Positions 47,374-52,152 of a stretch of DNA of 64,000 nt are shown one piece after another. A model generated the notes under the pieces. The model searched no databases. It saw only the letters and a list, made by a program, of their open reading frames with translations, and had not been told where the DNA came from. Origin of the DNA: Dyella terrae (lineage in GTDB: Bacteria; Pseudomonadota; Gammaproteobacteria; Xanthomonadales; Rhodanobacteraceae); contig NZ_SIZZ01000001.1 in NCBI RefSeq assembly GCF_004322705.1, forward strand, positions 1,426,001 to 1,490,000, read 5' to 3'. Made by a program: the position numbers and the translations under genes. Numbering within the stretch: position 1 is the stretch's first letter; each line of letters starts with the position of its first letter.

Positions 47374-48348
47374 ATGCAGCGCAGGCAGTTCCTCAAGGCA
47401 TCAGGAGCCACCGCACTGGGCGTCCTGGGCCTTTACGTGGCAGGTGCCGGCACCATGCGCAGCGCCTGGGCCGCCCTCGGCACGCCCGACCTGACCGCCG
47501 CCGAATACAAGGCATCACGCCGCTACGCAGCACTGAGCATGGGCAAGATCGCTTACATCGAGCGCGGTCACGGCCCGGCTGCGATCTTCCTGCATGGCAT
47601 ACCGCTCAACAGCTTTCAGTGGCGCGGCGCCATCGCCCGGCTGTCGCCCTATCGCCGATGTGTTGCGCCGGACTGGATGGGGCTCGGCTACACGGAAGTG
47701 CCGGCCGCGCAGCCGCTTGATGCGCACGCGCAGATGGCGATGATCGTCGCGCTGATGGACTCACTGCACATCGACAAGGCCGACTTCGTCGCAAGTGACT
47801 CGGGTACCGGCATCGCGCAATTGCTGGCGGTGAACCATCCCCAGCGCGTACGCAGCCTCTTGCTGACCAATGGCGATGTGGAAGGCGACAGCCCGCCCGC
47901 CGGCGCGCAGCCGGCGATCGAACTGGCGCGCGCAGGCAAGCTGGCCGATGCCACCGAAGCGTGGCTTGGCGATACGGCCATGGCGCAAGCCACGTTTGGC
48001 AAGGCCGTCTACCACAACCCTTCCGTACTCACGAGCGAGCACATCGCCTATTACGTCAGCCCAGTGGTGAGTTCGGAGCTTCGCCGCAAGCAGTACCACG
48101 ACATCCACCTGGCGATGGAGCCCAATCCGCTGGCGGGCATCGAGTCGAAGCTGAAGCAGAGCCATGTCCCGATGCGCGTGCTTTGGGGTGGCGAAGACAC
48201 GGTGTTCGCTCAGACGGATGCGGAATACCTGGATCGCACGTTCCCGCAATCGAAGGGCGTGCGTCGCCTTGCGGAAGGCAAGCTGTTTTTCCAGGAGGAG
48301 TACCCGGACGTCATCGCCGAGGAGGCGCGCAAGCTCTGGGGTGTTTGA
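47374..48348 (+). CDS. Exported alpha/beta hydrolase, haloalkane-dehalogenase-like
   Basis: The 324-residue protein has a twin-arginine signal (RRQFLKASGATALGVLGLY), then the alpha/beta core: FLHGIPLNSFQWRG, DWMGLGYTE, nucleophile region DFVASDSGTGIAQ, and LWGGEDTVF for the acid. In dehalogenases the aligned positions read H-D-W-G, so Asp or Ser of SDSG could be the nucleophile. The usual C-terminal catalytic His is not obvious: the aligned block reads LFFQEEYPDVIAEE. It is divergent from an AraC regulator gene. Substrate unknown. Confidence 0.78.
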   Translation: MQRRQFLKASGATALGVLGLYVAGAGTMRSAWAALGTPDLTAAEYKASRRYAALSMGKIAYIERGHGPAAIFLHGIPLNSFQWRGAIARLSPYRRCVAPDWMGLGYTEVPAAQPLDAHAQMAMIVALMDSLHIDKADFVASDSGTGIAQLLAVNHPQRVRSLLLTNGDVEGDSPPAGAQPAIELARAGKLADATEAWLGDTAMAQATFGKAVYHNPSVLTSEHIAYYVSPVVSSELRRKQYHDIHLAMEPNPLAGIESKLKQSHVPMRVLWGGEDTVFAQTDAEYLDRTFPQSKGVRRLAEGKLFFQEEYPDVIAEEARKLWGV

Positions 48349-48456: not shown

Positions 48457-48489
48457 TGTCCGGACAGACACCCGTTTCGTCCGCGGACA
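48457..48489 (+). promoter_or_regulatory. Upstream activating boxes of cassette 1
   Basis: TGTCCGGACA (48457-48466) and GTCCGCGGACA (48479-48489) lie 22 bp apart, about 70-100 bp before the sigma-54 promoter. The same two boxes occur at 49437-49470, 23 bp apart, before the second cassette. They are probably sites for a sigma-54 enhancer-binding protein. Confidence 0.6.
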
Positions 48490-48554: not shown

Positions 48555-48570
48555 CTGGCACGTGATTTGC
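48555..48570 (+). promoter_or_regulatory. Sigma-54 promoter of cassette 1
   Basis: CTGGCACGTGATTTGC matches the sigma-54 -24/-12 consensus, with GG (48557-48558) and GC (48569-48570) exactly 10 bases apart. The transcript would start near 48582, about 37 bases before the first small gene. Confidence 0.85.
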
Positions 48571-48618
48571 CATCTAACCCATGAAAGCAACATCACTTCC
48601 CCACCAAGGAGAAAGGTC

Positions 48619-48774
48619 ATGAAGTTCGAATCGCTGATGCTGAAGGGTCTGTTCGCCGCTTGCCTGCTGGTCTGCGCGCTGACGATGGGTTCGATGGTTT
48701 TCGCCAAGGCGCCGTCGTCGGCCCAGGTCATTGCCCACGCCGCACCCGCTGCCGCCGCCACCCTGAGTGGCTGA
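48619..48774 (+). CDS. Small membrane peptide SmpA1 (cassette 1, first)
   Basis: The 51-residue peptide has a positively charged start (MKFESLMLKG) and one hydrophobic segment (about 11-29, LFAACLLVCALTMGSMVFA) with two cysteines. It ends in an Ala-rich tail. Its first 22 residues are identical to the peptide encoded at 49599. AAGGAGAAAGG lies just before the ATG, and a sigma-54 promoter lies 49 bases upstream. It could be membrane-anchored or a signal peptide releasing a 20-residue Ala-rich tail after FAKA. No family was recognised. Working name only. Confidence 0.8.
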   Translation: MKFESLMLKGLFAACLLVCALTMGSMVFAKAPSSAQVIAHAAPAAAATLSG

Positions 48775-48814
48775 TGGTCCGGGCCATTGAGCCCGACACT
48801 GCAAGGAGCCTGTC

Positions 48815-48952
48815 ATGAAACTCGAATCCACCCTGCTCGCCGCCCTGTTCGCCTTTGGCGTGCTGGTCTCCGTCCTCACCGTCGCCAGCATGGCGCTGAG
48901 CAGTCACGAACCCGGGTATATCGCCTCGCAGCACAGTGGCGTGGCGAGCTGA
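48815..48952 (+). CDS. Small membrane peptide SmpB1 (cassette 1, second)
   Basis: The 45-residue peptide begins MKLESTLLAALFAFGVLVS and has one hydrophobic segment (about 7-28), then a polar tail (SSHEPGYIASQHSGVAS). It is a diverged paralogue of the peptides encoded at 48619, 49599 and 49784. It has lost their cysteines. AAGGAG lies 7 bases before the ATG, and it follows the first peptide gene by 40 bases. It ends against the stop of the opposite-strand gene at 48953. It is short enough to be missed by automatic annotation. Confidence 0.72.
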   Translation: MKLESTLLAALFAFGVLVSVLTVASMALSSHEPGYIASQHSGVAS

Positions 48953-49363
48953 TCAAGCCTCGTCGACAAAGCTGATCAGCGGTTCGCCTGCGAGCACGCG
49001 CTCCAGCGCCGTACGAATGCGCAAGGTCTGCTCCTTCACGACCGCACCGCCAAACAGACGCGCCAGCAAACCGGGCTCGACGACAGCGAAGCATCGCCAC
49101 ACGCGCCGGTGATCCGGCATGGCGGCGCCCTCTTCCGAATCCTCATCATTCGCGCAGCCCACCCACACGGGTACGGGCTGCGCAGCGCATTGCACGCACC
49201 AGCCCCAATCCTCGGCGATCACCACGGGTTGGTCGTAGCCTTCGCGCGCCAGGCGCTCGCCCAGCCAGTGCGCCAGCTGCTTGCCATATATACCCGGGTT
49301 AGTCGCGAGGTCTTCGCCTGCTTCGACCCTGAATAGCGGCGATGTAAAGCGATAGCCGTCCAT
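48953..49363 (-). CDS. Conserved-looking protein of unknown function between the two peptide cassettes
   Basis: The 136-residue soluble protein begins MDGYRFTSPLFRVEAGEDLATNPG and has a tryptophan/cysteine stretch (AEDWGWCVQC). It has no signal peptide or membrane segment. It runs against both peptide cassettes and its stop touches the stop of SmpB1. No family was recognised. Its start has only a weak CAGG ribosome site. Whether it belongs to the peptide system or is a bystander cannot be told from sequence. Confidence 0.7.
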   Translation of the reverse strand: MDGYRFTSPLFRVEAGEDLATNPGIYGKQLAHWLGERLAREGYDQPVVIAEDWGWCVQCAAQPVPVWVGCANDEDSEEGAAMPDHRRVWRCFAVVEPGLLARLFGGAVVKEQTLRIRTALERVLAGEPLISFVDEA

Positions 49364-49436
49364 TTGCCTGACCCGGGGAGAGAGAAGCGCGAGCGTACAC
49401 GAAACGTGAAACCGTCCGCACGTGCGTTGTCCGTGC

Positions 49437-49470
49437 TGTCCGGACGCGGTCGGACGTGCGTCCGCGGACA
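49437..49470 (+). promoter_or_regulatory. Upstream activating boxes of cassette 2
   Basis: TGTCCGGAC (49437-49445) and GTCCGCGGACA (49460-49470), the same pair as at 48457-48489. Extra TGTCCG and TCGGAC half-sites lie around and between them. The array ends 66 bases before the -24 element. Confidence 0.6.
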
Positions 49471-49536
49471 CCGCAAGTCGTCGATGACGATTTGAAGAAA
49501 CGGCTCAACGGCGCGGGTTTCCAGGCAACGATGCGG

Positions 49537-49552
49537 TTGGCACGACCCTTGC
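49537..49552 (+). promoter_or_regulatory. Sigma-54 promoter of cassette 2
   Basis: TTGGCACGACCCTTGC is a near-perfect -24/-12 element, with GG (49539-49540) and GC (49551-49552) 10 bases apart. The following leader (GCCATCTA, TGAAAGC, AAGGAGAAAGG) closely matches that of cassette 1. Confidence 0.88.
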
Positions 49553-49598
49553 CATCTATCCAGTGAAAGCCCAACCACTTCATCCAAGGAGAAAGGAC

Positions 49599-49748
49599 AT
49601 GAAATTCGAATCGCTGATGCTCAAGGGTCTCTTCGCAGCTTGCCTGCTGGTTTGCGCACTGACGGTTGGTGCGATGGTCACGGCCAAGGCTCCGGCCTCC
49701 ACCACGATCGCTAACGCCGCACCCGTTGCCTCCGCTCCCGCCGGCTGA
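49599..49748 (+). CDS. Small membrane peptide SmpA2 (cassette 2, first)
   Basis: The 49-residue peptide shares its first 22 residues exactly with the peptide encoded at 48619 (MKFESLMLKGLFAACLLVCA and the next two), then diverges in the Ala-rich tail (KAPASTTIANAAPVASAPAG). One hydrophobic segment with Cys15 and Cys19. The AAGGAGAAAGGAC leader is conserved as well. The strong conservation of the N-terminal half against a free tail suggests the membrane part carries the function or localisation signal. Confidence 0.82.
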   Translation: MKFESLMLKGLFAACLLVCALTVGAMVTAKAPASTTIANAAPVASAPAG

Positions 49749-49783
49749 ACCGGCTGATTCATCGGTACGAAAGGAACATCGCC

Positions 49784-49936
49784 ATGAAACTTGAAAACAT
49801 CCTGCTCAAGAGCTTTTTCGCCGCCTGCCTGCTGCTGTGTGTCATGACGCTGGGCGCCATGGTCACCACCGACGTCTCGGCTCCCGCCGCCGTCGCCAGC
49901 CAGGGCCACGTTGCCCCGGCCGCCAACGCCGACTGA
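49784..49936 (+). CDS. Small membrane peptide SmpB2 (cassette 2, second)
   Basis: The 50-residue peptide begins MKLENILLKSFFAACLLLC and has one hydrophobic segment, two cysteines and a polar/Ala tail (DVSAPAAVASQGHVAPAANAD). AAAGGAA lies before the ATG. It follows the first peptide of this cassette by 35 bases, mirroring cassette 1, so the two cassettes look like a duplication. Its stop is 25 bases from the convergent M13 peptidase gene. Confidence 0.78.
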   Translation: MKLENILLKSFFAACLLLCVMTLGAMVTTDVSAPAAVASQGHVAPAANAD

Positions 49937-49961: not shown

Positions 49962-51989
49962 TTACCAGAGCTTTACGCGTTGCGCGGGCGCCAGGTACAT
50001 ACCGTCACCCGGCTTGATGTCGAAGGCCCGATAGAAGCCATCCTGGTTCTTCAAGGCCTCCTGCCCGCGCACCTGGCGAGGCGAATGCGGATTGCTGCGC
50101 AGTAGCCTGATGGTTTCGTTGTCGCGCACTTTGGCTCGCCACTTCTGCGTCCATGCCATGTAAAGGCGCTGGTCGCCCGTCAGGCCATCGATGACCGGCG
50201 CAGGCTTGCCACCCAACGACAGTTGATACGCGCGATACGCCATGGCCAGGCCGGTGTTGTCCGCTACGTTCTCGCTGAGCGTCTGTTGACCGTTGATGAA
50301 GTGGCCCGGCAGAACCTCGACCTTGTCGTATTGCACGGCCATCGCATGCGCACGCTCGTCGAACCGCGCCTGATCCCGGGTCGTGAACCAGCCTGGCTTG
50401 CCGAGCAAGCGACCGTCCGCCGCGTACTGGCTGCCGATATTGTCGAAGCCATGACTGATCTCATGGCCGATCGACGCACCGATGGCGCCATAGTTCGCTG
50501 CGTCTTCCGCGTCGACGTCGAAGAACGGCGGCTGCATCAGGCCGGCGGGAAAGACGATCTCGTTCTGCGGCGGATACTGGTAGGCATCGACCGTCTGTGG
50601 GGTGATGTACCACTCGTCCTTGTCCACCGCGTGGCCGAGCTTGCCGATGTTGCGGTTGTATTCGAACGATCGCGCGCGACGTACGTTGCCCACGAGATCA
50701 CCAGCCCGGATATCGAGCTGGCTGTAGTCGCGCCAGCGATCGGGATAACCGATCTTCACGTGCAGGGTGGACAGCTTCTCCTTCGCCCTGGCCCGCGTCT
50801 GCGGCTCCATCCAATCGGCCTCATCGATCTCCTCGCGCGCCGCCAGCACCAGCATGTCGACCATGTGCTGCAGTCGTGCTTTCGAGGCTGGCGAAAAGTA
50901 CTGAGCGACATACTGACGGCCCAACCCTTCGCCCATCGATGCCTCGATCAGATCCATGCCGCGCTGCCAACGCGGCGTGTTCACCTTGATGCCTCGAAGC
51001 ACCCTGCTGTTGAAAGCAAAGTCTTCTTCGACGAAAACACGGCTGAGATAGGTCGCATAGGCCGTCAGCATCTGCGTGCGCAGGTAGGCCTGCCAGGTGT
51101 CGGCGGGCACGCTGTGAAGCAGTTTGCCAACGGCCTCGTAATAGCCGGGCTGCGCGACGACAATGTTGTCGATGCGACCCGCGATGCCGGCACCCTTGAG
51201 ATACGCAGACCAATCCAGCGACGGCATCGTTTGCGCAAGCGTGTCGATGCGGATCCGGTTGTTGGTTTTGGTCGGATCGCTGCTGTCCGCCCCGCTCCAC
51301 TGCGCCTTGGCCAGCTGAGTTTCCAGCGCCATGACCGCAGGGGCGTGTTCCTTGGCCCGGGTGTCGCCATCGAGTCGCAGCAGCGTCGCGAGATGCTTGA
51401 CGTAGGCGGCGCGCGCCTGTTCGAAAGGCGCGCCCTTTTCGAGGTAGTAATCGCGATCGGGCAAGCCCAGGCCGTTCTGGGAAATCGTCACGGCATAGAT
51501 CGACGGATCGTCGGCGTCGTTGAGCACCGAGTTGGAGAACGGACTCATCACCCACAGACGCCCCAGCTCGCCCATGGCGAGACAGAGTTTCTCAGGCGTG
51601 TCGGCTTGGGCGATCTGCTGGCGAAGATCGGCCAGGGGCGTCGATCTAAGCGATTCCAGCCGCGACTCATCGAGATAGCTGCGATAGAGGCGGGTCATCT
51701 TCTGCCAGTCGGGACGCAGTTCGGCCGCCTCCGGCTGAGGACCTTCGATGATCCCCTTCAAGCGCTGACGGATGATGGCATCCAGTTCGGACGAAGGCGT
51801 GATGCGCTCACCGTCGGCGGGGATCTGCGCGGCGCGGAGCCAGCCGCCGTTGACGTACTGGTAGAAGTTGTCCTGGGGTCGTATGGCGACATCATGGGCC
51901 GAGGCATCGATGCCGGAGTGCTGCACCTCCGCGGCGGCTACGCCCAACGACAGTGAAAGACAGGCAAGAGCAAGCAGGTGACATTTCAT
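49962..51989 (-). CDS. M13-family (neprilysin-like) zinc metallopeptidase
   Basis: The 675-residue protein has a signal peptide (MKCHLLALACLSLSLGVAAA), the M13 N-terminal domain (DNFYQYVNGGWLRAAQIP) and the catalytic domain with His509-Glu510-Ile-Ser-His513 and the third-ligand block ENVADNTGL. It degrades peptides in the periplasm or outside. Length is normal for bacterial M13. It is convergent with the small-peptide cassettes; a functional link is possible but unproven. Confidence 0.95.
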   Translation of the reverse strand: MKCHLLALACLSLSLGVAAAEVQHSGIDASAHDVAIRPQDNFYQYVNGGWLRAAQIPADGERITPSSELDAIIRQRLKGIIEGPQPEAAELRPDWQKMTRLYRSYLDESRLESLRSTPLADLRQQIAQADTPEKLCLAMGELGRLWVMSPFSNSVLNDADDPSIYAVTISQNGLGLPDRDYYLEKGAPFEQARAAYVKHLATLLRLDGDTRAKEHAPAVMALETQLAKAQWSGADSSDPTKTNNRIRIDTLAQTMPSLDWSAYLKGAGIAGRIDNIVVAQPGYYEAVGKLLHSVPADTWQAYLRTQMLTAYATYLSRVFVEEDFAFNSRVLRGIKVNTPRWQRGMDLIEASMGEGLGRQYVAQYFSPASKARLQHMVDMLVLAAREEIDEADWMEPQTRARAKEKLSTLHVKIGYPDRWRDYSQLDIRAGDLVGNVRRARSFEYNRNIGKLGHAVDKDEWYITPQTVDAYQYPPQNEIVFPAGLMQPPFFDVDAEDAANYGAIGASIGHEISHGFDNIGSQYAADGRLLGKPGWFTTRDQARFDERAHAMAVQYDKVEVLPGHFINGQQTLSENVADNTGLAMAYRAYQLSLGGKPAPVIDGLTGDQRLYMAWTQKWRAKVRDNETIRLLRSNPHSPRQVRGQEALKNQDGFYRAFDIKPGDGMYLAPAQRVKLW

Positions 51990-52152
51990 GGGAGTCCGGG
52001 CGACAAGGCGCCGGTCCAGGACGTATTGCGTATGTGCGCTTCCCTTCGCCCCCCGGCGAGCCAGCATAGTCCCGTCACCCAACTCCCGCCACGTGCATGG
52101 TGCGCACTTCCTCTGCTACGTTCGGCGCATGTACCCACTGCCAAGGTTCGCC

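Follow-up and report, generated by a model that had tools for sequence, protein, structure and literature searches.

MacB-type exporters are widespread, but to our knowledge few of the peptides that partner them or serve as their substrates have been identified. A modulating small peptide is described for a different kind of pump: the 49 aa peptide AcrZ modulates AcrB (PMC7267776). In addition, the enterotoxin STII, a Sec-type small peptide with periplasmic disulfides, is exported by MacAB-TolC (PMC5985334). In enterobacteria, MacAB itself is controlled by the PhoPQ two-component system (PMC5985334).

The locus described here lies in the window, which is the whole 64,000 nt stretch of Dyella terrae DNA that was analysed (C1:1426001-1490000 of a 4.22 Mb genome). 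Comparative sequence evidence confirms that four peptides encoded in this window are the products of real genes, and that relatives of these genes, none of them in a described family, occur throughout one family of soil bacteria.

Two cassettes of micropeptide genes

As an earlier note made from the sequence had reported, the four genes form two pairs. All four lie on the forward strand (Table 1). The 22 N-terminal residues that it saw shared between the first members of the pairs proved to be exact. Micropeptides 1 and 3 are identical over precisely this stretch and show 76-78% identity, and the unit of promoter, leader and first gene is repeated 980-982 bp apart with 75-85% identity. Each pair was also said to have its own sigma-54 promoter, and two exact TGGCACGN4TTGC sites are indeed present in the window where 0.14 would be expected; none of 100 shuffled sequences reached two. 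All four ORFs have a plausible Shine-Dalgarno sequence, and their GC3 values range from 0.70 to 0.84. Inverted repeats of TGTCCG/CGGACA are located upstream of both promoters, outside the interval first reported. These repeats, a fifth paralogue and a shared regulon are additional to the earlier note.

Table 1. Positions of the micropeptide cassettes and of other features of this genome. Plain numbers are window positions; those with a C prefix are genome coordinates.
Feature	Position	Strand	Remarks
Flanking gene	47376-48348	+	Tat-signal alpha/beta hydrolase (domain scan)
Upstream activator site, cassette 1	48457..48466	.	TGTCCGGACA; putative, read from sequence
Main enhancer palindrome, cassette 1	48478..48489 = C1:1474478-1474489	.	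CGTCCGCGGACA; putative; start 78 bp upstream of sigma-54 site
Sigma-54 promoter 1	48556..48570	+	TGGCACGTGATTTGC; exact -24/-12 consensus
Micropeptide 1 gene	48619..48774	+	51 aa; Cys-free tail
Micropeptide 2 gene	48815..48952	+	45 aa; second gene of pair, without own promoter
Upstream activator half-sites, cassette 2	49428..49445	.	TGTCCGTGCTGTCCGGAC; putative, read from sequence
Main enhancer palindrome, cassette 2	49459..49470 = C1:1475459-1475470	.	CGTCCGCGGACA; putative; 79 bp upstream of sigma-54 site
Sigma-54 promoter 2	49538..49552	+	TGGCACGACCCTTGC; exact consensus
Micropeptide 3 gene	49599..49748	+	49 aa; Cys-free tail
Micropeptide 4 gene	49784..49936	+	50 aa; second gene of pair
Flanking ORF	49962-52082	-	Resembles M13-type metallopeptidase (judged by eye)
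Fifth paralogue	C2:156713-156835		Type II; profile search of genome, E 1.8e-10
Type II locus (L009)	C2:155380-158394		Between divergent M16-like peptidase gene and trmL
Enhancer and sigma-54 site of secreted alpha/beta hydrolase (L048)	C1:439618-439697	-	Abhydrolase_1, S33-like; pattern and domains
MacAB-like exporter operon (within L024/L038, C1:1936000-1960000)	C1:1955119 down to about 1937400	descending coordinates	Domain scan
Palindrome upstream of pcm-tolC (L047)	C3:423166-423177		Exact; no recognisable sigma-54 site

The fifth paralogue is unlinked to the window cassettes. It represents a longer type (type II) whose tail carries a Cys pair (CMLPPDGIVCPR), and it is preceded by an exact sigma-54 site and the enhancer repeat TGTCCGCGGACA. 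Neither of the genes flanking the window cassettes is conserved beside the peptide genes of relatives. Among the loci compared, no neighbours of the window cassettes are conserved, whereas the type II locus retains its synteny across genera, and so the window pairs seem to have expanded within a single lineage.

In type II genes, the 5′ leader from the sigma-54 site to the ATG is itself conserved (GTGCAGGAC...ACCCACTTTCATCGGAGAC; L063-L082). This conservation may reflect control at the RNA level.

Distribution and sequence features of the micropeptide family

The earlier note knew of no described family for these peptides, and this view is borne out by the databases searched. No Pfam or NCBIfam family scored above its cut-off for the 33 members tested, and searches of family libraries and of PDB sequences returned chance matches only. 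The note had also proposed a search of Rhodanobacteraceae genomes, where at least one match is present in 145 of 234 genomes and in 21 of the 26 genera (three matches are weak), and where the combination of promoter and peptide recurs. The note's first refuting condition, that related genomes would lack homologous small ORFs with the leader, is contradicted by these matches. Named carriers include Dyella, Rhodanobacter, Frateuria and Luteibacter, with an alignment of the type II subset used as the query for the named-genome scan. A single genome can yield between 1 and 10 matches. When an order-wide sample was searched, 98 of 399 genomes matched, and every listed match fell inside this one bacterial family. 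A contig labelled as an Eremiobacteraeota MAG (L222) also carries one family member, and this contig is probably misbinned.

Each peptide of about 50 aa contains a single hydrophobic helix, which is under stronger constraint than the remainder of the sequence (median dN/dS 0.16 for helix residues 2-28 and 0.46 for the tail). All of the 84 sequences have E4, F12 and M26, and positions 11-27 are free of charged residues. Small-xxx-small packing positions occur within the helix at G/S10-A14 and C15-C19. An AlphaFold model of a type II member contains a helix at residues 2-28 with good confidence and a tail with low confidence. Among paralogues the leader is conserved and the tail is variable. Cysteines are absent from the tail in 38 of the 84 sequences and number at least two in the other 46 (type II), and a tail with exactly one was never found. 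The tails of the four window peptides lack Cys pairs, and type I tails in general are low-complexity Ala/Pro sequences. The topology we infer from these sequences is N-in/C-out, with a membrane helix and an extracytoplasmic tail.

A lipoprotein assignment was considered and rejected. A lipobox would require G, A or S before the Cys at the end of the h-region, but C19 is preceded by V or I in nearly all members, and C15 occurs too soon in the sequence and has hydrophobic residues after it.

Promoter and enhancer architecture in relatives

The promoter survey covered 86 distinct micropeptide genes from fetched loci. Of these genes, 74 are promoter-proximal, and each of the remaining 12, which lack a promoter, is the second gene of a tandem pair. 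A sigma-54 site is located 43-59 nt before the ATG in 74/74 promoter-proximal genes (65 exact, 8 with one mismatch and 1 with two mismatches). Furthermore, the palindromic enhancer TGTCCGCGGACA, with two mismatches or fewer, starts 77-81 bp upstream of the sigma-54 site in all 74, and in 52 of them at exactly 79 bp. The earlier note had proposed a micropeptide system controlled by sigma-54 and an activator, and this proposal is strongly supported by the comparative genomics. A second pass through named loci, whose species partly overlap those of the survey, identified the same architecture in 70 of 80 cases, with nearly all of the rest being second genes.

Additional sites accompany the main palindrome. 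In 51 of the 74 genes, the 60 bp before it contain a further TGTCCGGACA-like site (no more than two mismatches), compared with 2.4% in shuffled sequences. IHF-like sites between enhancer and promoter are present in 14/74, compared with 0.17 in shuffles.

The palindrome alone, with one mismatch allowed, shows no excess in the genome (15 matches versus 20 for the control), and the enhancer is informative only in combination with the sigma-54 site. When the two are combined in a strict enhancer-promoter pattern, 158 of the 234 genomes of the bacterial family have matches, with zero in all reversed controls. In another family of the order (f8), an enhancer-promoter search gave 0/39. An early version of the enhancer pattern (TGTCCGNNCGGACA) was wrong and gave no more matches than its control.

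A probable shared regulon that includes a MacAB-like exporter

A relaxed form of the enhancer-promoter pattern matches exactly five places in this genome, and its reversed control matches none. The five places are the two window cassettes, the fifth paralogue, a secreted alpha/beta hydrolase gene, and an operon that encodes an exporter together with a two-component system. Specifically, this operon encodes a membrane-fusion protein, one ABC ATPase, about six MacB_PCD/FtsX permeases and a DUF885 protein, as well as an NtrC-type response regulator (REC, Sigma54_activat and the Fis-type HTH domain HTH_8) and a HAMP/PAS histidine kinase. Thus a regulator with a Sigma54_activat domain has the enhancer on its own operon, and we infer that the operon-encoded NtrC-type protein is the activator of the enhancers. 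In about 30 genomes inspected by eye, the regulator gene follows an enhancer-promoter of the same orientation at a distance of roughly 10-26 kb.

In relatives, promoters of this type are placed ahead of other FtsX-type permeases, a membrane-fusion protein and a TolC-type outer membrane protein (OEP), as well as pcm, a secreted hydrolase and secreted proteins that are SnoaL-like. The pcm gene is the one that precedes tolC in the window genome. The enhancer upstream of pcm-tolC in this genome lacks a recognisable sigma-54 site, and such a site is present at pcm or tolC in three relatives (L263, L264 and L280). TolC is therefore counted as a regulon member in relatives only.

Peptides and a close orthologue of the regulator tend to occur together (137 both, 83 neither, 5 and 6 discordant), in a statistic that ignores shared ancestry. 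The complete 2.9 Mb genome G017 (L129) has kept one peptide unit and has no close regulator orthologue. Genomes that are free of peptides retain the regulator, often along with an enhancer-driven promoter, which indicates that the peptides are not essential to the regulon. Taken from sequence comparison, the peptides are very probably outputs of an exporter regulon that is under sigma-54 control of the NtrC type.

Possible functions of the micropeptides

Because the same conserved enhancer-promoter also drives the MacAB-like exporter, the peptides are probably helpers or cargo of this exporter. This shared control narrows the candidate roles given in the earlier note (a membrane regulator, a secreted peptide or a toxin-like peptide) to something linked to the exporter. 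Our best guess, although a tentative one, is that the micropeptides are small accessory membrane subunits of the exporter, in the manner of AcrZ and AcrB. Under this model, an envelope signal would be sensed by the HAMP/PAS histidine kinase, which would phosphorylate the NtrC-type response regulator. Bound to tandem TGTCCG-CGGACA enhancers that lie about 79 bp ahead of the sigma-54 promoters, and helped at some of them by IHF bending, the regulator would then activate the exporter operon, the secreted hydrolase and the micropeptide genes together. The peptides would insert N-in/C-out, exposing an extracytoplasmic tail that either is plain (type I) or bears a two-cysteine loop (type II). Their packing partners may be the MacB/FtsX permeases expressed with them, or a related envelope protein, which they would serve as accessory or modulator subunits, and their differing tails may tune the substrate or the partner.

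The conserved helix and its small-xxx-small positions suit an accessory subunit best. Against this reading, the micropeptide genes stand apart from the exporter operon, and their number differs between genomes. By contrast, the peptides could be exported precursors, wherein an N-terminal Sec signal is cleaved near residue 29 and a tail of 20-40 residues leaves through the co-regulated MacAB-TolC-like pump to act outside as a signal or antimicrobial. The co-regulation with the exporter, with secreted hydrolases and, in relatives, with TolC favours export, as do the absent or paired tail cysteines, the variable tail behind a conserved leader, and the M16 peptidase gene that is transcribed away from the type II locus. 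Many members also have V-x-A or a similar sequence at positions 27-29, which fits signal peptidase I, and most have small residues at 28-29. Moreover, E. coli provides a precedent, in which a disulfide-bonded peptide delivered by Sec leaves through MacAB-TolC (PMC5985334). However, the helix with its invariant residues is the most constrained part of the peptide, which is unusual for a signal peptide, and its hydrophobic stretch is long, at about 18 residues. In several members the residues are poorly suited to cleavage (for example MVTTDVS and MALSSHE), and type I tails are of low complexity, and on balance we regard export of the tail as somewhat unlikely. A broader proposal, put forward with slightly more reserve than the accessory subunit, is that micropeptides with diversified tails, often bearing a disulfide loop, serve throughout the bacterial family either as interchangeable specificity subunits of the MacAB-like exporter or as its secreted signalling cargo.

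Other functions appear less probable. Small membrane peptides that regulate kinases are known in other bacteria, and here kinase and peptides have a regulon in common. The helix could contact the kinase or the membrane and, as a reporter of exporter flux or of damage to the membrane, tune the two-component system, but retention of the regulator in peptide-free genomes makes such a feedback or sensor role improbable. Peptides that are short, hydrophobic and present in multiple copies also resemble membrane-depolarising toxins. This resemblance is very unlikely to reflect their function, since no antitoxin gene was recognised, the window cassettes have no conserved neighbour, no Rfam RNA scored above threshold at the locus (a search of described RNA families only), and the genes exhibit strong purifying selection and a fixed promoter. 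Finally, many short ORFs in DNA of high GC content are spurious, and the sigma-54 sites and small ORFs might be a product of chance or be non-coding. The probability of this is negligible given dN/dS values well below 1, conservation across genera and zero matches in controls.

Comparison with known systems

In well over a hundred genomes, the family is now anchored by a regulatory signature of fixed form, by a candidate activator and by an exporter under the same control. As a result, the peptide partners or substrates of MacB-type exporters become directly testable in soil bacteria. The individual ingredients of this system are of known kinds, and their combination appears to be new; in the part of the literature searched, we found no description of the motif or of a system that joins micropeptides, a MacAB-like exporter and secreted hydrolases.

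The AcrZ-AcrB pair of E. coli resembles the present system in that a peptide of about 50 aa with one hydrophobic helix is linked to an efflux pump of tripartite type (PMC7267776). The likeness drawn here is one of size, helix and pump link. AcrZ has an N-out/C-in topology and an RND pump as its target, whereas the micropeptides are predicted to be N-in/C-out, are linked to a pump of the MacB/FtsX type and are under sigma-54 control. Also, many genomes carry several micropeptide paralogues, and about half of the distinct sequences have a Cys-pair tail. Compared with STII, to which we claim no sequence relation, the conserved part of the micropeptides is the leader helix, and secretion is a proposal made here.

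With regard to gene control, both the PhoPQ-MacAB system and the one predicted here place a MacAB exporter under a two-component system. The likely regulator here differs in being an NtrC-type sigma-54 activator that is encoded in the exporter operon, and its regulon includes micropeptides. Other NtrC-type sigma-54 regulons share the -24/-12 promoter, the palindromic enhancers, the IHF-like sites and a REC-AAA-Fis HTH regulator. What sets this regulon apart from them is its target set of micropeptides, MacAB-like exporter and secreted hydrolases, which has no counterpart in the literature searched.
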